A stretch of 64,000 nt of DNA from Circinella umbellata. Lineage: Eukaryota > Mucoromycota > Mucoromycetes > Mucorales > Lichtheimiaceae. The DNA lies in assembly GCA_025093555.1 (NCBI GenBank), contig JAIWNF010000026.1, positions 558,001 to 622,000 of the forward strand, given 5' to 3'. Position 1 is the first letter of the stretch. Each line of letters opens with the position of its first letter. The position numbers were made by a program, and so were the translations under genes. The notes under the pieces are model-generated. The model saw only the letters and a program-made list of their open reading frames with translations, was not told the DNA's origin and did no database searches. Positions 10,356 to 51,955 of this stretch are shown here, one piece after another.

Positions 10356-12452
10356 TCATGGAATAATGCACCCGCCATTAAATGTAAATTTAGCAACAGA
10401 ATGACATTCAACAGCGATTCTTCCATGTTTCATACTTTCTTGCCAATAATCTTTTTTTGCTAAACTTGGTGGCTGTTCCGAATAATGACTATGCTGTCGC
10501 CGTTCTTCTGCACTTCCATTCATTGCTTCTTCCGTCTTCAATGCTTCATACTGTAGGAATTCATAGATTTGTTTGTCCCGTAATCTTCGATCATGATGAT
10601 CTTGGCTGATATACCAACGCGTTGACTTATTCCCATAGCGTCGTCCATCCCGTTTTGCCCATGTTGATTTATTCGTTTGTGACAGTGAGCAGATATTTGC
10701 ATATCCAACTCTTGATGTTTCTAATTCCAAGTATATTTCTGCCAGGTTAATTTCGTCAAATACATGATTCGGCATTTTTATGGTGACAGTTGTTGCTATA
10801 CTTTCCTCTTGTTGTTGCTGAACACTACATACGACGGAAATTTGAGAAAGCTGTGTACATTGATGTGACAATGACGTGAATAGTTCCGGTGTAAAATGAA
10901 CTCTGTTAAGATGAAACGATTTTAATTTATATTCTGCCATGGTTGACAATCCTGCTGTTGTTGAATCATTATTAGGTTGGGAATGATTATCTTGCTGGCT
11001 GCCAAACGTAACATGGGCGTTATTAATTTCTAACCTTTCCAACTGTAATAACTTGTTTAAAAGTTTACCGACATCAATTGGACTACGTAAACGACGACCG
11101 AATGCTAAAGCGGATATCTTCAAATCTTTTAATAATGGACAGGACCGCGTAATAGATGAAATATGGATTGAAACGTGTGATAGCTTCCAATATGCTGTGT
11201 GCAGATGTAACATAACTAGAGAGTTACCAATCGTTTGAAGCATCATGTCATATGTTTCTTTACTATATCGAAGATAATATGCATTACCACCTGGAATCAA
11301 TAGTTCTTGTATACGCCCCATTTCCAAGACCTTCAATCGAGTTCCAACATCTTCTAGAGTTTCAAAAAATGTTTGGTTTGGTGCCAATAGTGCATCGATA
11401 CCACGTAATCGTAATTCCTCAAGTTTTCGACATCGAAGTGCCAGATTTACGAACGTGTGTATTCGTTGTTCAGTTGTAACAGTAACAATACGAGGGAATG
11501 GTTGTTGCGGTGCAAATGTATTAATCGTAATAAAGTTGACATCGAGTGACGTTATGTTGGGAAACAACTCTGTAATCGATCGTATGCATGAATATTGTGA
11601 GTTTATAGATGCTTTGGCAAATGAGATCTTTAGAGTTTGTAATGGATTATGGATAGAAGATATAGATGAATTATTTATAGATAAAGTTGGTGGTAGTGTA
11701 TCATCTGGTCCATTTGTCGCTCTATTTGTTGTCGTTGGTTCTTCAGATAATTCAAACCGCATCACTATCTTGCAAAGAATTTTAAACACTTCCAGCTGTG
11801 GACAAAATGTTGCAATAGAACGGAAATGATGTGGGTGAATAGGTAAAAGTGTGGACATAACACTATCGACTGCATTATTGTTGTCGTTATGTTGGTAATG
11901 GTAATTGTCTATTACTGGCAATAGTACAAGTTCTTTTAAATGAGGTGTGTTTGCAAAAATGGTGAACGTCGTTGGTTGGGATAATACAATATGGAGTGTA
12001 GTCAATCTTGACCCATAAGTAGGAAGAAGTGTTAGTGCGATATGCTGATTCAAAGGTGGCAACTGTCGAATACTATGTAGCCAACTACTGCTGCTTTTTA
12101 ATAACTGATGACCTCGTGGGATATATTTCCATATGCGTTGATGAAAATAGAGTAGTTCAATCAAAGGACAAAGTAAACCAAGCTGTTCGATTTCTACCCA
12201 AGTCAGCCCGACGTTATCCAACAGAACTAACTTTTTGACGTGTTGGCCGTATGGAATGCCGTCATTGTCAAGTTGTTGTATAGATCGAAAGAACCGTCGA
12301 AATCTTTTCCTGGAATTAATCTTGACTGTATGATAAAGATATTTACGCATGGGATTTAACCAGTTTGTACATACACGAGAACTGGTGGCGACATCGGGAG
12401 TAGATAGATTTGCAGCAATCAACTCCAAGATTTCAAAAGGGGCATCAGCCAT
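10356..12452 (-). CDS. F-box / leucine-rich-repeat protein
   Basis: Single-exon gene of 698 residues. The N-terminus, MADAPFEILELIAANLSTPD followed by VATSSRVCTNWLNPMRKYLY, is a standard F-box (about residues 5-45), which would bind Skp1 in an SCF ubiquitin ligase. The middle shows irregular leucine-rich segments such as LKVLEMGRIQELLI, CRKLEELRLRGIDALL and CPLLKDLKISALAFG, likely the substrate-binding LRR region. The last 130 residues are charged and unrecognised. It is convergent with the NIPA gene, whose stop is 255 bp away. Large variable families of such proteins are common in Mucoromycota, and the substrate cannot be inferred. A G-rich tract (10270-10285) lies in the short gap after the stop. 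Confidence 0.88.
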   Translation of the reverse strand: MADAPFEILELIAANLSTPDVATSSRVCTNWLNPMRKYLYHTVKINSRKRFRRFFRSIQQLDNDGIPYGQHVKKLVLLDNVGLTWVEIEQLGLLCPLIELLYFHQRIWKYIPRGHQLLKSSSSWLHSIRQLPPLNQHIALTLLPTYGSRLTTLHIVLSQPTTFTIFANTPHLKELVLLPVIDNYHYQHNDNNNAVDSVMSTLLPIHPHHFRSIATFCPQLEVFKILCKIVMRFELSEEPTTTNRATNGPDDTLPPTLSINNSSISSIHNPLQTLKISFAKASINSQYSCIRSITELFPNITSLDVNFITINTFAPQQPFPRIVTVTTEQRIHTFVNLALRCRKLEELRLRGIDALLAPNQTFFETLEDVGTRLKVLEMGRIQELLIPGGNAYYLRYSKETYDMMLQTIGNSLVMLHLHTAYWKLSHVSIHISSITRSCPLLKDLKISALAFGRRLRSPIDVGKLLNKLLQLERLEINNAHVTFGSQQDNHSQPNNDSTTAGLSTMAEYKLKSFHLNRVHFTPELFTSLSHQCTQLSQISVVCSVQQQQEESIATTVTIKMPNHVFDEINLAEIYLELETSRVGYANICSLSQTNKSTWAKRDGRRYGNKSTRWYISQDHHDRRLRDKQIYEFLQYEALKTEEAMNGSAEERRQHSHYSEQPPSLAKKDYWQESMKHGRIAVECHSVAKFTFNGGCIIP

Positions 12453-12667
12453 TTTATTTTACAAAATATAGAAAAAAAAGTTAAAAAAGCAAAAAGCAAA
12501 AAGCAAAGAAAAAAAGGGAAAGGATGGTGCTGTGTTACCAAGATTTATTGTTAATGCCTTTTAATCAGATAAATGATAATAATAGTTGGTGTATAGAAAG
12601 CAGTAGGACGGTATCATAATAATAATAATAAAGAGTGGGAATTAGTGACAAGTTACTTATATTGGTT

Positions 12668-21925: not shown

Positions 21926-21973
<48 letters not shown>

Positions 21974-21990
21974 GTTATTATTATTATTAT
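21926..21990. repeat. (ATT)n microsatellite abutting a stop codon
   Basis: About 21 ATT/TAA units with one substitution. On the minus strand the first TAA unit (21987-21989) is the stop codon of the Nudix-CCCH-W2 gene, so the 3' UTR starts as a (TAA)n run. Confidence 0.9.
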
Positions 21991-24952
21991 TCGTCGTCTT
22001 CATCTGCGGTGCTTAACCATTCAATAAACTTGGAGCTCTTGACCTTCAATTCACTACCGTCTTGTAATACTGCATACCAACCAAAGAAGGCTTCTTCATC
22101 CACAAGATCACAATCATACCAAGTTGAAAAAGCTACAATCGTTTTAGAAAGTAATCCGGGACTACGTTGGGTTACAAACTTTTCCCATGCCTTCAATAAA
22201 GTACGTTGATCTGTCATGTTTTTCACAAACTATCATAATAATTATTAAATTAGACTCTTATTGATAAGAAAAAAAAGGCATATACATCTACACCCACTCA
22301 TACATATTAAGCACATATTTATAAGAAGTACTTACTGTTTGGAAAAGTGTAATACGTGCTTTGAGAGTTGCGCCGACACCTGATGGACTGTCTTCAAGTA
22401 AACTTGCCAAAAGGATAAAAAGTAATTGACGTTTCGATAAATCATTACGCATTTCCAGCTTGGTAACTTCTTTTACATCATCAGAAAGCTTTCCATTGCT
22501 AGTAGCCTGACTAGCTGTATGCTCAGCAAAGTATTTTTTCAAGTCCCCAATAATGGCTTCCTCTTGGGCAGCTTTGGCTGGTGTAGGAGAAGGAGTTTTT
22601 GCAGGAGGAGACCTGATTTTGTTTTGATAGATGTTGTATACATATGAGTTTATAATGATCTTTTTTTTTGCATAATAATAATGAAATTGGAAAAATAACT
22701 TACATTTCAAGTTTTGCCTGTTCTTCTTTGGATAAGTGAACTACCTTCATCCACGATTTGTTGGTCGGCTATATAGTTATTTATACACATATTCACGCAT
22801 ATAGTTAATAACAAGTTACACCCAGCTTTACAAAAAAAATGTACTTACACTAATTCTACCATTCATCACCTCTCGTAATGGTGTATTGGAATTACGTTGA
22901 TTTTGCTTTTCCATAGATTTACTAATGCTACTATTGTTCTTAGTGTTGCTGCTAGTGGTTGTTGATGTGGTGGTGGCAATTTTGTTGTTCGTGCTGTTGG
23001 ACCGGCCATTTTGTTTCACAGCAATTGGTTTGGGTATATCTTCCACTATATCCCTCTTTGACAAATCCGGGTGTTCTGGGTTATTAATTGAATTTTCATC
23101 CATATTTTGATAATCATTGTTATTGTTATTGTTATAAGTGTTGCTGTTGCTGTAGTTGCTATTCGTAGTAGTGCTGTTATTTATATGAGTTCGAGCCCGC
23201 CACGAGCCACCCGCCGCCGATCTTTCTTCTCCATGAAGATGTTGTTGTTGTTGATGATGATGATGCTGTTGTTGCGGTTGTTGCTGTTGCCTGAAATAGC
23301 GTTGTTGTTGTTGTTGTTGATAATGGTGATGTTCCACAGGTGGTGACGCCACACGTTGCGGTTGTTGCGTTTGTGATTGCATCTGATGATGATGTACTTC
23401 ATGGTGCTGCTGTTTCTCTTGATAAGGCTGTTGCGAGGATGGGTATTGCTCATCTTCAGACCGTCTGCCATTACTATTTTCATTGTTATTATTAAATACT
23501 GGTCTTTCCTTCAATTCTTGAGTACCGTGTGCTATTAATCATAATTATTAGGTACATTCTCTCCTGATATTTCACTTAGTGCACATATTTCCCTATGTTT
23601 TTTTTCTTTATACCCATCCAATAAAGAAAAACTTACCAAAATGACATTTAGGTCCGTATTGACAAAAGTTGTCCTTCATAAAACGTTCACACAGCTTAGT
23701 CTTGTATAAAGCATTAGCTTCAGCATTCGAAGATGTTGACTTGTTATTAGTCGTGGTACTACTACTATTATTCGTCGCAGTAATAGAAGGCATTGTCATC
23801 GCTGTTGCCGTGATACCATTGTTGTTACTATTGCTGTTACTATTGCTGTTGTTATGGTTACCGTTGATCTGGTCATTATTACTACCATTACGATTTTCCT
23901 CTTCAGCAATGCGCTCACGAAGTTCAACAATACCATGAGCAAAAGTACATTTGGATCCATATGAACACATTCCTTCCTTTTCAAAACGTTCACAGAGTCG
24001 AGTTTTGTACAGCGGATTAGCCGCAGCAGAGTTTTCATTCTGTTGATTTTGACGTCTCTGCTGTTGATCATGTTGTTGATTTGACGACGAATTTTGTTGC
24101 TGACGAAGGTGATGATTATTTTGATGGTGAGTCACCAAACCATTGACTTGGGGAGAAGATGATGACATGTTACGTGTAGTAGTAGACGATCCATGCTGTT
24201 GTCGATGATTATTATGATGATGACGTTGACGATGATCCATCAAATCACCATTATTATCTCTGTTACGACGATTTTGTTGACGCGTCTTTAATTTATTTTC
24301 GATAAATTGCTGAGCATATTTAAAAACATCTTCCATACTCTTAAAAATCACTTTCTCAGTGGCAACGTGTTGGTTACACCATTGGAAATGCACACCATCT
24401 GCATTTGGAAGTAAACGAGCATGATTATCCAATATTTGTGCCAAACGATAAACGACTTTCTTTGGACTTCAAAAAAAAAGCACATATTGTAGATCAGATT
24501 ATTTTGATCTCTCATTTTATCCGTTACTGACGTACCCCTTGAATGAAAAAAAAATAATCTCTATCTAGCCCCCTTAAAACCTCGATTATATATATATATA
24601 TTTGGTTTTACTTACCGAGTACCAGAGAGGTATTTGAGTTCAATTTTAAAACCTTCTTCCACGCGAAGATCCTTTGGGCTTAAGCCAGTTGCTTCAAACG
24701 TTTCACGTAACGCACATCTAACAGATTTGACATTTTGAGTTTTGCATCCTTTTTTTTCAATTAACTTTTTTTTTAACAAAATGAAAACAGAACTTACTTG
24801 ACTTCGTCTTCTTGACCAATCACTTGTCCTTTAGGACAAAACCAGTGTTTTTTATTTGTAAACGAGTCGTTTAATAATAAATATTCAACGTTTCTCTGCG
24901 ACCGATAAATTAATAATCCAGCGTATAGATTGTTTTGAGAAGATTTGTCCAT
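21987..24952 (-). CDS. Nudix - tandem CCCH zinc finger - W2 domain fusion protein
   Basis: Seven exons (24798-24952, 24616-24717, 23637-24466, 22849-23531, 22704-22768, 22336-22612 and 21987-22229) sum to 2,355 nt, giving 784 residues. Residues 8-95 resemble Ap4A hydrolase (NUDT2-like): WFCPKGQ, then the Nudix box G42-x5-E48-x7-R56-E57-T-F-E60-A61-T-G63-L64, then GFKIELKYLSGTRPKKVVY. A61 replaces the second Glu of REUxEExGU. Two C-x8-C-x5-C-x3-H fingers follow (C244/C253/C259/H263 and C345/C354/C360/H364), each with a YKT(R/K)LCERF lead-in as in TIS11/TTP mRNA-binding proteins. They are set in Asn/Gln/His-rich sequence. From about residue 615 comes a W2 domain as in eIF5/eIF2B-epsilon/BZW, ending in FIEWLSTADEDDE. 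The Nudix box and finger 2 are each split by an intron that splices to give the exact motif, so the joins are well supported. Inference: an mRNA-binding regulator linking 5'-end or dinucleotide chemistry to decay or translation. Confidence 0.85.
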
Positions 24953-29368: not shown

Positions 29369-32300
29369 CTATGATTGATGATTGTTGGAAGCTTTGTTTT
29401 GTTGATGCTCGGAAGCTTCTCCAGCTGCTCGGTTGAAATCTTGAGCATAAGCAACCAAGGATGCGAATCTGTTATTGCTAGAACCGGGGGTGCTACCATT
29501 AGTTGAAACAGCGCCATAACGAGGGGGAGAAGTACCCAACAAGCTAGAGCGAACACTAGTAAGTGAATCCGAACGGCTATGGCTACGGTGAGGATGACGC
29601 GAGCGACGAAGCATCGAATAAACACGAAGACCGTTACGAACATCACCTATAGCACCTTCCCAATGCATACGAGAATAGGTAGCAAGTTGACGAGCATCTT
29701 CACGGAAATAACGTTCAAATCCACAGTCGGGCAACAAACGAATAATAGTACCGACAGGAAGAGAAAGAGAACCAATCAATACAGTAATTAACCATTGCAT
29801 GGGTGTCAAAGGTGTAGTTTTGAATGCAATACCACCAAATGTGACAATCAAGAATTGGGTGAGAACAACGATAACTTGAATAGTAATAAAGATCCAGTTA
29901 TTAAACATATCCTTGAATACGTTAATACTTCCATCAATGCGGCGACAGTTAATTTCGTTGAAGACTTGTAAAAAGACAAAAATATTGAATACGATGGTAC
30001 GCAATACTGCATCATCATGTGGACTGTCACCAAGGTGGAAAATAGGTTTGCCGAGATAAATAACACACAAGTTGATGACAATTTGGAAAATAGCTTGGCC
30101 AACAATCATTTTGCCCATAGTAAAGTTGATCAAATGAGCATATTTCGAAATGGGTTTACGTTGAAGCAAATCGTCAGTGGGTGGTTCAGTAGCTAAAGCC
30201 AAAGCAGCTAATGTATCCATGATAAGGTTTACCCACAAGAGTTGTACAGCACTCAAAACACTTTCAGAATCGGCGGAGCCAACAGCACTAATGAATGAAA
30301 GAGCAACCGCTGCGATATTAACGGTCAATTGGAAAGTCAAGAACTTGCGTACGCCATCATTAACAGCACGACCCCATAACAAAGCCTTCAAGATCGAGTT
30401 GAAGTTATCGTCCATAAGAATAATATCAGAAGCTTCCTTGGCAACTTCAGTACCAGCAATACCCATACTAAAACCGACATCAGCCATTTTAAGAGCAGGT
30501 CCGTCGTTTGTACCATCACCAGTCATACCAACAACTTGATCTTGCTCCTGAAGTCGGCTAACAACAACAGTTTTGTCAGTAGGAGAGGAACGAGCCAAAA
30601 CTTGTAGACGAGGAATAACCTTGCGTTGTTCTTCAACAGACATGGCGCGTAATTCTGGACCGGTTAATGCTTCACCACCCTTGGTAAGAATACCAGCATT
30701 GCGAGCAATAGCCTTAGCTGTAGTCAAGTTATCACCAGTGATCATACGAACAAATACACCAGCTTCACGGAATTTAGCGACAGATTCAACGACACCAGGT
30801 CGAAGAGGATCCATAATACCCACAATACCAATCAATGTCAATTCTTCAAGTGGAGGTTCATCAGTGTCAGTAGCATTTTCGTATTCGTCGGTCTCAATAT
30901 CACGATAAGCCAAAGCGATGGTACGCAAAGCATGGTTGGCGTATTCAGTAATAATATTGTTCCAGCGGGTGAGTACCTCCTTATCAAGTTTCTGGGTGTT
31001 ACCCTTTTCATCAATGAAATGAGTACAAGAGCCCAAGACAATTTCAGATGCGCCTTTGACGTAAGCGCGATAATCGGCTTGTGATTTTGACTTTGCAGTG
31101 TTTTCTTGAACCTTAATAACAGTTGTCATGGTCTTGCGCTTAGATGAAAAGGGGAAAACCTTGGCAATCTTGGCGTCGTGACGAATATCTTCATAGCTAC
31201 TACCGAGGCTCTTGGAAAAACCGAGCAATGCACATTCCGTCTTGGAACCAACAAAATCAACATTACCATTTTCGTCCTTGCCTTCAAATGCTGTAGAATT
31301 GACAGCAATATTTTCAAACAATAATTCCTGAACTGCCTTGGGATCCACCTTCTTTGCCCAGTTCTTGATGTCTTCAATAGAATCAAATGATTCTTCGGCC
31401 AAAGTACCACGTACAACAGTCATTCTGTTTTGGGTTAATGTACCCGTTTTGTCCGAACAAATAGCAGTGGCGTTACCCATGGTTTCACATGCTGCCAAGA
31501 CACGAACGAGATTGCTATCCTTAAGCATTTGAGTGGTAGCAAAAGCTAATGCCATAGTCACAGCCATAGGAAGACCTTCTGGAACAGCGACAACAATAAT
31601 AGTAATAGCTTGAATAACAATACTAATCATAGCAGCGGCGATTTCTCCAGCTGGAGGGAATTCATCTTGTAATGCGGCAGTGACAAAGAACTTGATGACC
31701 AAAGCCAAGAGCATAGCAAGGGCAGCAGCAAAACCGAGTTTGGCAATTTGTTCAGCTAATACATCGAGTTTGACTTGCAAAGGAGTACCTTCGGTTTCTT
31801 CGCCACGCATGGACATCATGGTCTTACCATAAAAAGAATGTTCACCGACAGCAATGACAAGTGCACGACCAACACCTTCCAAAACCTTAGAGCCCGACAA
31901 AATAAAGCAATCGCCTTTGCCTTTACCTTCGGTCTCTTTCTTCATAGTATCGGTTTCACCAGTGGCAGAAGATTCATCACAGGCCAAGTTATGACCTCCC
32001 AAAAAGATACCATCGACGGGAACAATATCACCCGGTTCAAGTTCGAGAACATCACCGACATTTAAATCATAGACGCTAATTTGTTGTTGTTTACCACCCC
32101 GCAATACTTTAACTTCACGATCCTCTTTCTTGGCATTGAGTTTCTTGAATTGAGCTTCTTTTTGATAATCGTTGACAGCATTGGTTAAGACAACAGCTAA
32201 TACAGCAACAAGAATGGCAGTACCTTCAACCCTAATTTAATTATATAATAAATCATCCAATTTTTAGAATTCGGAGAAACATTTATTTTAGTTGTTCCAT

Positions 32301-32901
32301 AATGTAACAAAGTGGATATGTGTCACATTTATTAGCCACGAAACTTACCAGCCTACACGTGGCTCGTCTGGGGGGTGTCGTGGCGAGTAATCTTCCCATA
32401 TACCGACAGCAAGACTTACAAACGAAGCAATGGTCAACATAACTATTAAATTCATTTACACAACGAAATGATCATTAATAAATGCAATTACTTCTTTTTT
32501 GTTGTTTTTTTCCCTCCATTTCGGGGAAATGGGCCCGTTGCAGAATAAACATTCCAAATAAATAAAAAAAAAATAGACAGCATACTCAAAGTTTTGTCAT
32601 TATAGGCTGCCCATAGTAATTCCATAAATGTTTTGCTTTGTGCTTCGGGCAAGACATTTCGACCAAATACCGATTGACGTTCATTGAATGGTTCGTCACT
32701 TGATCGTTCAACACCTTCGTCAGCAGATAAACCGACGCGTACGTCAACACGTAATTTTCGAGCGAGTTCTTCAGTACCACCCAGTCGTTCAAGTAAGTCT
32801 GGACTTTTTGGATCAACTAAATGTTGTAGTTCTTCAGCAGATACCCCAAAGGACCCTTGATGATCATTATTGATCAGAGGCCTTCGTTCTTCTCGAGGCA
32901 T
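29369..32901 (-). CDS. PMC1: PMCA-type (P2B) Ca2+-transporting ATPase
   Basis: ATP-driven Ca2+ pump of the vacuolar or plasma membrane. Three exons, 32586-32901, 32349-32442 and 29369-32231, total 3,273 nt (1,090 residues). The start is the ATG at 32899-32901 (MPREERRPL); the frame extends upstream only as Phe-rich UTR-like sequence. Seen in order: membrane pair M1-M2 (VEGTAILVAVLAVVLTNAVN), actuator TGE (about residue 228), PEGLP in M4 (about 354-358), the phosphorylated Asp in CSDKTGTLTQNR (D397), the nucleotide-binding KGASE region, MITGDNLTTAKAIA, and the hinge GDGTNDGPALKMADVGFSM. The M5-M10 helices carry NLIMDTLAALALATEPP, typical of P2B pumps. The tail is Arg/Ser-rich and could carry the regulatory region. 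All catalytic residues look intact. Confidence 0.96.
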
Positions 32902-34120
32902 ATTATGTTTTTTTTTTCTAAAAAAATTGAAAAGAATGAAAAGAAAAAGAAAAAAAAATAAAACGAAAAGGAAAGACAAGATAAAATTTATTTATTGGGG
33001 GGGAGGGGGGGGACATGAAATATATAAAAAGAGAACTGGGAACACTTTAATGTTTGTTAGTTTTCTTCATGCGTGTAATAATCGCTGTGTGAAAAAAAAA
33101 CCAACGAGTATATGTATATAATATAGCCTACTCAGCCATTTCTTTCGGAATGTTCTGCTATCAAATTAATTATAGATTGCCACAGAAATTTTGCTGTTCC
33201 CTTCTCTCCTTGGGTAACAGCACTGAATTGACTTTGAGTTACACATGATATAAAATTTTCCTTTTTATATAAATAAAATGCTGTTGATTGATATACTTAT
33301 TTAATTTTTTTTGAACAAGTTATCAAAAAACAATATCACGTTCTATTGAAGTTTTTTTTTGTATTGAGATAGACTAATGGCACGATGATTTTTATTTAAA
33401 CGACTTCATAATCAACTCGGCAGTGAATACCGATGGTTGTTTACCTAGCTACCCATTTATTGGCAGTAAATTACCTTTTCCCATTATCAATTAACATTAA
33501 AGTATTTTACAAAGAGCACAGACAGGTTAATGCTTTTTTTTCGGTCTAATTGAAACGACACCAAGTAGTTTTTGTATAGAAAATGTCATGCTATCATCAT
33601 CATCATAATCATCATCATCATAATTCATTTTTAATATTATAATTATATTTCACACTAACCAGTTATTGTATTCGGACTTATGCACATGTTTCAGAAAGTG
33701 AGCTATTTTATCACTAGGGCGTTTTCTTTGATTGTCGAGCGAACCAAATAAATATGCACCTTATACTCATTGTTGTCATGACTCTTATGTACTGTACTAC
33801 TCTATTCCAAAATTCTTTCATTCAAACAAAGATGACAACTATTTATATAAATACATCAAGTAAAACTTTTGTTTGTTTTGTTTTTTAAATAAAAAAAGTA
33901 TGTGAGATGTATTTTCTACATTAAAACAACAAATAAAGCAATCAAATTTTAATGAAAATGAAGTAGTAGTCGGTTGAATTGTCGAAAAAAAGTAAGAAAA
34001 AAATGTAATATTGAAACAATAGGAAAAGAAAAGGGAAGAGGAAGGGGGAATATATGCAAAAACAAGTAATGAAAAAAAAATTACAGCATAAAAATGTAAT
34101 AAGAAAAAAAAATAGAATTT
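32902..34120. other. Intergenic region between Ca2+-ATPase and FCP1
   Basis: Contains a G-rich tract (32997-33012), a (CAT)n-like run at 33593-33625 and AT-rich sequence. No coding region supported. It holds the promoter of the Ca2+-ATPase gene and the 3' end of FCP1. Confidence 0.6.
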
Positions 34121-49362: not shown

Positions 49363-50566
49363 CAATCATGAAGTGGTGTAATGTCTTTTTGTGGATGGTG
49401 TTGTCAGTGGGAGGGGTAAGACTGGATGAATCTGTCACACTCGGTACATCTTTTGAAGCATATTATCAAAATGAGAGAATGACGAATTTGACAATGTGTT
49501 GATCATGCCAGCTAACGCTGAACCCTTTTTTTTGCTCTCTGATAGATTTACAATAGGAACTTCTAAGCTTTTTTACCTTCATCATATTTGTATACTCGCT
49601 AGATTCTTATATTATCTCAGCAATATAAGGAGGATATATTACATACTTGTATGGGTATACGAAAATAGCATAACTACTAAATTGAGTAGCTCAACAAGTA
49701 TTATACGACTACACACTCCCGATCTAATAATACAATAACAAAATCCATGAATACACACAAAGCCATAGAACACAAGCAAGTATTATATACATTGATAAAA
49801 TCATGTTAGGAATTTTCTCTAAAGTTATACAAACATTTTTCAAGATAGCAACTGGGTCTTGGCTCATGTCGTCCTTTTCTTTCTCTTTTACAAGTTTACA
49901 CCAATATACCAATAGTGTAAAGAATCAAATGTCATTATACACTTACAGTTAGCGATGACGACAACAAAACATATTTTTTGCTTGATATATCATTTTTACG
50001 TACCTACCAAAATAGGCTTAAGGGAGTACTTTGTTTAGAATACACAAAAGATCGATCTCGTATCAAACAAGTAAGTATTAACTGCATATCTACTGATAGA
50101 ATCATTTCATTACATCCATGAACTCCGCTACGCTCGAGGATGGTTCATAAACAATGCCGTGTACTTTAGGTTTATAATGAGAAGAACAAAGAAATAACTG
50201 ATCATTTACATGGGTCTTTTGTGTAACCTATTTATATGATTTGAGTGTTTTTACTTGTTTTAGAATACATACTGCAAGTGACAACAATGAAATGATGAGA
50301 ACATGTATCATTAATGCAAATACATAATCAGCGCAACTTGTTTATCTCTTCACGAATGAAAATTATTCTTTAACAGAATCTCCTTTTCTTTATCTTTTTT
50401 ATTTTCTTTTGTTTCCCATTATTGCGAGAATTGCTGCTTCTTAAAGAATATATAAACCAACTTTACTGAACGACTTTATTTTTTACTTCTTCATCTATAC
50501 TTCCTTTTTTCCCATTCAATAACATCTCAAACATCCGGTTTATATCTACGTACATCAATCACTACT
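49363..50566. other. Intergenic sequence upstream of the frameshifted F-box gene
   Basis: AT-rich with no gene recognised. A CT-rich stretch (50,385-50,530) just before the F-box start is promoter-like. Confidence 0.55.
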
Positions 50567-51955
50567 ATGAACCACCACAATCAGCATCAAAACTCTTTTG
50601 ATTTTTTACCTCATGTTCCCAATGAGCTTTTAATCAGTATATTTTCGTATCTTAATTTTTTTCAATTTCTTCAGTGTCTCGACGTAAGTCGGTACTGGCG
50701 CAATCGATTGATGAACGTTGTCTGGGTGCGGATGGAAAATGTATTTTTCGAACAAACACCCGTACTCCAGAATCTCAACAATAGTGAAGAACGGCCCTTG
50801 GTTGGACGGTGGCTTCATGGATTACCTATACCGTATATTGTGATGTCACCGGAAATGGTGTTTTTAACATCATTGATTACCGACCGCTATTGTCAAATTC
50901 AGACAGCAGGTATGTAATTTTGTTTTTGTCTTCCAACTAAATAAAGAGCTGAAAAATTGTATCAATTTGTGTAATATTTCAAACACGTAAAATTTTGTAG
51001 TAATGCATAGAGCTGGATTTGACTACATTTACCGATTTTTTCAATTAAACTTCACTACACTACAAAACCACTTCTTACATCAAACTACTTTTTCTTCTGA
51101 TAACGCCAATATGTTTTTCACTTTGATCGCTACAAATACTACGTTACGTAACTTCCATCTTCACCAAATACACCTTCTCCCCGATTTGTTTATATTCGCA
51201 ACCAGATTCCTTTTCTTACAAGACTTACGATTGATCACATAGACGCAAGTGATCCCATTTTACTTTTTCGGTTTATTGACGCCACGTTGCAACAGTCCAT
51301 CCATTTACAAGAGCTAGTATTTGGACCTAACACCTTTTTCCGAAACCACATTACATATATCATTGAACTTTGCCCACCAACTTTACTGTCCTTTACCATC
51401 TCCGCCAATGATGCCATGCGTCATCTACTACGCCACGACCTTCACATCATACAGCATCCACACCATATACATCCGCTTCAAATGCTCTCACTCGACTACG
51501 ATATACACACATCTCCCCAGGCACCTTCAATCAGCATAAACGACTTAAATGGAATATCTTTCTACGTCGCCAACACCCTCCAATTCCTCCACATACGTGT
51601 ACCTTGGGGTAGATCAAGAAACTGGCGCCAAAACATCAATGTAATAAACGTTCTTGCTTCTCTCATTTCCCAATGCCGACAACTACGTGTTGTATACTGG
51701 GAACAGCATATAACAGAGGTAATTTTGGCTGCTTTAGCTGAGCTACCTCATTTACAAATCATTCATTTCAATCTCTACCATCACCGTCATTCACCCCGAC
51801 TCACGCACTCATTACAAACCTTTTTCCAAAACATTCCTTTCAACCAACTGACCGAAATATTTCTTCTTCATGCTCGCCCTCGTCTCATAAATCCCGATAC
51901 CGAACAGATCATCTATACCCGCTTCCCGAATGCCATAATTTGCATCCCACAGTGA
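50567..51955 (+). pseudogene. F-box/LRR gene with one frameshift
   Basis: Exon 1 (50567-50910) starts MNHHNQHQNSF and contains an F-box: LPHVPNELLISIFSYL then LQCLDVSRYWRNRLMNVVW. A GTATGT...TGTAG intron (50911-51000) splices in frame into VMHRAGFDYIYRFFQLN. The frame then stops at TAG 51240-51242. The reading continues at once one frame over as IDHIDASDPILLFRFIDATL to a stop at 51953-51955, with normal LRR-like sequence throughout. One lost base near 51,225-51,235 explains this. No GT...AG intron removes the shift in frame. It is either a recent pseudogene or a sequencing error. It is a different F-box family member from the gene at 10356-12452. Confidence 0.8.

Follow-up and report, generated by a model that had tools for sequence, protein, structure and literature searches.

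A predicted single gene of Circinella umbellata that joins diverged Nudix, CCCH and W2 domains

Introduction

The TTP/TIS11 family is defined by an 18-residue linker between two CCCH fingers, and each finger is canonically preceded by the lead-in (R/K)YKTEL. Proteins of the TTP type are known for the recruitment of decay enzymes, and proteins carrying a W2 domain, which usually sits at the protein C terminus, for the control of initiation. In the case of CPSF5/NUDT21, RNA is bound by the Nudix domain itself, and the protein contains neither CCCH nor W2 domains. The combination of Nudix, CCCH and W2 domains in one protein is unusual, and we know of no earlier description of this architecture.

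According to the available excerpts of a published study (PMC5389931), the Nudix box follows the motif GX5EX7REUXEEXGU and binds metal, and a tyrosine in the X-loop, specific for ApnA, contacts the substrate in ApnA hydrolases. The same excerpts list mRNA decapping among the functions reported for the Ap4A clades, name DBC1 as a noncatalytic Nudix protein, state that box residues have been lost more than once among Nudix proteins, for example in CPSF5, and call the structures 3U53 and 1XSC human (PMC5389931).

Results

Gene structure and domain architecture

The window analyzed here is a stretch of 64,000 nt from Circinella umbellata contig JAIWNF010000026.1, and window positions are used throughout. 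On the minus strand, splicing at GTAAGT...AG joins seven exons (24952..21987) into a coding sequence of 2355 nt, which encodes 784 residues followed by TAA (Table 1). All six introns are of the GTAAGT...AG form and range in size from 80 to 149 nt. The sense strand of the 2966-base locus contains GTAAGT six times, each time at a donor of the model, where 0.88 occurrences are expected from dinucleotides; the opposite strand of the locus contains none. The coding frame is free of stops until the final TAA, and the remaining frames contain 1 to 44 stops per exon across the seven exons. No Met codon precedes the start ATG in its stop-to-stop frame, and the base at −3 is C. The coordinates, strand, seven exons and 784 residues given by the first-pass annotation were all correct, as judged by splicing and by the open frame to TAA.

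Table 1. Features of the fusion gene, in window positions.
Feature	Position	Strand	Description
Whole coding region	21987..24952	-	ATG at 24952, TAA end at 21987; open exon frames; 6/6 donors GTAAGT
Exon 1	24952-24798	-	
Exon 2	24717-24616	-	
Exon 3	24466-23637	-	
Exon 4	23531-22849	-	End of finger 2, then long N/Q/H/S/T-rich linker
Exon 5	22768-22704	-	65 nt; bridges CCCH part and W2 part
Exon 6	22612-22336	-	
Exon 7	22229-21987	-	
NUDIX domain	24289..24922	-	Residues ~11-145; PF00293 over 11-120; NUDT2 3u53 over 17-141
Nudix box	24681..24829	-	Residues 42-64; intron 1 inside; Ala61 codon 24692-24690
CCCH finger 1	23932..24009	-	Residues 239-264; C-x8-C-x5-C-x3-H; lead-in YKTRL; PF00642; 41.4 bits in own-genome search
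Linker between fingers	23692..23934	-	81 residues, N/S/T-rich; 264-344, between His263 and Cys345
CCCH finger 2	23524..23706	-	Residues 340-365; intron 3 inside; zinc-ligand His from exon 4
Probable N-terminal half of W2 HEAT domain	22212..22551	-	Exon 6 and start of exon 7; eIF4G1 alignment
W2 (Pfam match PF02020)	21990..22211	-	Residues 711-784, up to C terminus; boxes YDCDLVDEEAFFGW, FIEWLSTADEDDE

The domain searches that the annotation had proposed for the translation placed all three families above their curated Pfam-A cut-offs on the 784-residue protein: NUDIX with 29.6 bits (cut-off 21.1), zf-CCCH with 63.9 bits in two stretches (cut-off 20.5) and W2 with 44.4 bits (cut-off 30). A search of residues 1–145 against NCBIfam gave no match above cut-off. 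The residues N, Q, H, S and T make up 56–66% of three linkers of the protein. The claim of a three-domain architecture encoded by a single gene is supported by the Pfam matches, the splice sites and the reading frame, from which the fusion is predicted to be, very likely, one gene. The three-domain model withstands these checks, and every predicted domain belongs, in diverged form, to a known family.

Introns 1 (24797–24718) and 2 (24615–24467) split the Nudix domain, intron 3 (23636–23532) splits the second finger, and intron 6 (22335–22230) lies directly before the Pfam W2 match, within the eIF4G1 alignment. Exon 3 is a single open frame, residues 87–362. It begins in the Nudix domain, whose C-terminal part it encodes, and runs on through finger 1 into finger 2, of which it contains most. 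The link between the Nudix C-terminal part and finger 1 needs no splicing, because both lie in this open exon. The possibility that the Nudix and CCCH parts had been merged by accident was rejected, residues 87–362 being within one open frame. The join between the CCCH and W2 parts depends on intron 4 (80 nt), the 65-base exon 5 and intron 5 (91 nt), across which the frame is maintained. The TAA stop also opens an imperfect TAA microsatellite (window positions 21930–21989), of which it is the first repeat unit.

Searching the spliced protein against its own genome (50.8 Mb, 210 contigs), exon by exon, did not reveal a second copy of the fusion. The eight matches consist of the gene's own seven exons and one TIS11-type gene (C161:83583–83786; E 1.2e-6). 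One stretch in viral contigs matched the pattern, as did 57 in prokaryote genomes searched with a 348-residue part of the protein; none was confirmed as a relative in either set, which is unsurprising for a fungal gene.

The Nudix domain

The Nudix box is located within the first two exons; introns 1 and 2 are both spanned by the NUDT2 alignment (residues 17–141). The top PDB sequence match is NUDT2 chain 3u53 (E 1.4e-17), and the five best solved chains, which cover fusion residues 11–142, all bear the name Ap4A hydrolase, with E values from 1.4e-17 to 1.9e-12. These five chains represent three distinct proteins, since 3u53, 1xsa and 4ick are versions of NUDT2, an asymmetrical Ap4A hydrolase; the others are 1kt9 and 5cfi.

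In the box of the fusion, GQVIGQEDEVKCALRETFEATGL, Gly42, Glu48, Arg56, Glu57, Glu60 and Gly63 are retained, and Glu60 is followed by Ala61. The segment RETFEATGL, when compared to REUXEEXGU, has Ala61 in place of the second Glu of the EE pair, so that the box is incomplete. At this position, Glu is found in every one of the five Ap4A-hydrolase chains, which represent three proteins. The U position of REUXEE is Thr in the fusion and likewise in NUDT2. The Glu of RE is Ala in chains 1xsa and 4ick, presumably as the result of an engineered change. Ahead of the conserved Trp, 5/5 of the same chains (three proteins) contain the loop S-[HD]-E-H (SHEH/SDEH), a pattern defined from alignments rather than from a curated definition; the fusion reads NADG here, and its Asp109 aligns with the Glu of the loop. 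In the X-loop, Tyr81 is retained and aligns with the NUDT2 tyrosine. The residue number 87 given for this tyrosine in the available excerpts of the published study fits the numbering of chain 1xsa, which is five above that of 3u53 (PMC5389931). In summary of the alignment, the RETxE segment and the X-loop tyrosine are common to the fusion and NUDT2/Ap4A hydrolases, whereas the fusion differs in the Ala at the second Glu of EE, in the loss of S-[HD]-E-H and in the attached fingers and W2 domain.

The Nudix family search of the genome returned 11 matches; the fusion gene escaped it because three exons each encode a part of the domain. The EE pair, read by eye, is present in 10 of these 11 other matches, one of which (L045) carries Ile where RE has its Glu. 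The remaining match is isomerase-like, lacks the standard box and, we presume, resembles isopentenyl-diphosphate isomerase. A NUDT2 query gave three weak matches in the genome: one exon of the fusion (E 0.21) and two Nudix loci elsewhere (E 0.019 and 0.033). With this query, which is insensitive in that the fusion's own exon scores E 0.21, no clear separate NUDT2-like gene was found in the genome.

The designation “Ap4A-hydrolase-like” is therefore appropriate at the level of sequence, but the enzyme that it implies is doubtful, because one Glu of the box (Ala61) and the S-[HD]-E-H loop (NADG) are altered. Introns do interrupt both the Nudix box and finger 2, as annotated, and splicing restores finger 2; the Nudix box, which had been described as perfect, is imperfect at Ala61. 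In the Nudix domain, catalysis is probably weak or absent. The domain may still bind a ligand, perhaps an adenine dinucleotide, and looks to have lost part of its metal site; the loss of the second Glu may have reduced activity without abolishing it. CPSF5/NUDT21 (CFIm25) is likewise a Nudix protein with altered box residues, but in the available excerpts it clusters away from the Ap4A hydrolases (PMC5389931).

The CCCH fingers

Both fingers match C-x8-C-x5-C-x3-H exactly, at residues 244–263 and 345–364. Among solved structures, they are closest to butyrate response factor 2 (1rgo) and tristetraprolin (1m9o). The lead-ins are LYKTRL and LYKTKL, in which YKT is unchanged and the first residue and the Glu are changed relative to (R/K)YKTEL. 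The CCCH family search of the genome yielded 23 matches, two of which are the fingers of the fusion. A standard tandem CCCH gene on contig C161 has the lead-ins LYKTEY and RYKTQI, and its fingers begin 38 residues apart, corresponding to an 18-residue linker as opposed to 81 residues in the fusion. Contigs C127 and C35 each harbor a similar single finger (six CCCH loci were pattern-scanned, of the 23 matches).

The fusion thus has in common with TTP/TIS11 (1rgo, 1m9o) two C-x8-C-x5-C-x3-H fingers and the YKT lead-ins, and is distinguished by its linker (81 versus 18 residues), by the lead-in forms YKTRL and YKTKL and by the added Nudix and W2 domains. Accordingly, the label “TIS11-type” fits each finger alone but not the spacing of the pair, and a standard TIS11 pair was rejected on the basis of the 81-residue linker. 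A continuous nonamer would be a less likely target for the pair than two short elements set apart from each other. The long linker predicts spacing tolerance, which could be assessed by comparing two spaced UAUU sites with UAUUUAUU.

At two other CCCH loci on separate contigs, L011 (G000:C172:125752) and L012 (C179:198618), the 32 residues around the finger are identical, pointing either to a recent duplication or to an assembly stretch that is present twice.

The W2 domain

The W2 domain matches the solved chains of eIF5 (2iu1, E 5.1e-5) and of eIF4G1 (6zmw, E 2.3e-4 over residues 645–783). Pfam gave no W2 match on the exon-6 half alone. The W2 family search of the genome returned five matches, including the fusion gene, and both aromatic/acidic boxes of the fusion are retained and align with stretches from the four other loci. 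By family features, we take these loci to be eIF5, eIF2B-epsilon, a 5MP-like gene and a further, fifth W2 protein; on these labels, separate genes for eIF5, eIF2B-epsilon and a 5MP-like protein exist beside the fusion. The fusion shares with eIF5, 5MP (BZW), eIF2B-epsilon and eIF4G1 a C-terminal W2 domain with both boxes, and Pfam found in it none of the other domains of these proteins. Unlike in eIF5, the loop after box 1 is shorter, by approximately 7 residues, and contacts with eIF2-beta or eIF3 may therefore be lost.

Single-sequence AlphaFold models of exon 7 are mixed alpha/beta rather than all-helical, the best of the five having a mean pLDDT of 78.9 and the rest between 47.0 and 74.6. 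This result speaks against the all-helical fold expected of W2, but it was given little weight, since only half a domain was modeled and no alignment was used.

The fifth W2 protein, L005 (G000:C127:115182–115412), is encoded by one open frame of 737 codons. Its W2 domain scores 41.5 bits on a 239-residue piece, and beyond it lie long stretches that are acidic and N/H/T-rich. The N-terminal parts of eIF5, eIF2B or 5MP were not seen in its translation, inspected by eye.

Discussion

The reading that we prefer, at a probability of about 0.42, is that the fusion is an mRNA-binding adaptor that would bring the initiation factors contacted by W2 to U/A-rich mRNAs, with a degenerate Nudix domain that would be inefficient in hydrolysis. 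In this model we infer the single transcript, the RNA binding, the W2 partner, the loss of catalysis and the direction of the effect. One gene with a single transcript would give rise to one adaptor protein, whose two CCCH fingers, set apart from each other, would recognize one short U/A-rich element each. At the C terminus, W2 would dock on an initiation-factor partner, eIF2-beta or eIF3, as in eIF5, 5MP and eIF2B-epsilon, and initiation on the bound mRNA could be lowered or redirected as a result of this docking. The degenerate Nudix domain would most likely act by binding rather than by efficient hydrolysis, its ligand being either a protein or a nucleotide (Ap4A, cap or NAD-like).

All of this presupposes that the CCCH and W2 parts belong together. 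It is highly improbable that the model has merged two neighboring genes, a Nudix–CCCH gene ending in intron 4 and a W2 gene starting in exon 5 or 6. Such a division would fall conveniently in that introns 4 and 5 lie outside the recognized domains, that read-through into intron 4 meets a stop after six residues, and that Met597 in exon 5, or Met612, whose codon is split by intron 5, is at hand. However, both introns are GTAAGT...AG and keep the frame, exon 4 is open as far as its donor, all six sense-strand GTAAGT sites of the locus are used by the model, the W2 domain sits in its usual place at the C terminus, and a second promoter would have to be located in coding sequence or in introns 4 and 5. 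If the gene is one, its product could still act otherwise than through initiation: the W2-like and Nudix domains may be mere scaffolds that have acquired new partners, and the protein would then in essence be a TIS11-like decay factor, with deadenylases recruited via its linkers. The long linkers rich in N, Q, H, S and T (56–66% in three of them), which are typical of mRNA-decay granule proteins, and the shortened W2 loop point in this direction, but both aromatic/acidic boxes of W2 are retained and its Pfam score is 44.4 bits, and we regard this decay-factor reading as rather unlikely.

The catalytic state of the Nudix domain bears on a further alternative, in which an active Np4N hydrolase or decapping-like enzyme is targeted by the fingers to AU-rich mRNAs and alters their 5′ ends, with W2 holding it at ribosomes engaged in initiation. 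NUDT2 is the closest solved relative, and Arg56-Glu57, Glu60 and Tyr81 are retained; a separate NUDT2-like gene was not found in the genome, a weak point in its favor given that the fusion's own exon reaches only E 0.21. Decapping is also listed among the functions of the Ap4A clades in the available excerpts (PMC5389931). Nevertheless, Ala61 occupies a position that is Glu in 5/5 Ap4A-hydrolase chains, and the S-[HD]-E-H loop reads NADG, and we regard an active enzyme as unlikely.

Were the fusion an adaptor, a protein with both CCCH and W2 domains would provide a direct route from an mRNA sequence element to the initiation factors, and a degenerate Ap4A-hydrolase-like domain alongside them would be a testable nucleotide sensor. 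A more far-reaching and, in our opinion, doubtful proposal is that the fusion represents a new architectural class of mRNA regulator, in which ARE binding is wired to initiation via W2 and a pseudo-Nudix gate senses Ap4A or a 5′-end nucleotide. If true, a stress nucleotide could tune the translation of a chosen set of mRNAs within one polypeptide.

Other genes in the window

Long frames are found on the minus strand at window positions 29369–32991, and we take them, by their motifs, to resemble a P-type calcium ATPase. Further frames are located at 10356–12458 (minus strand) and 50456–51955 (plus strand); both are presumably F-box/leucine-rich-repeat-like, judging from their features.
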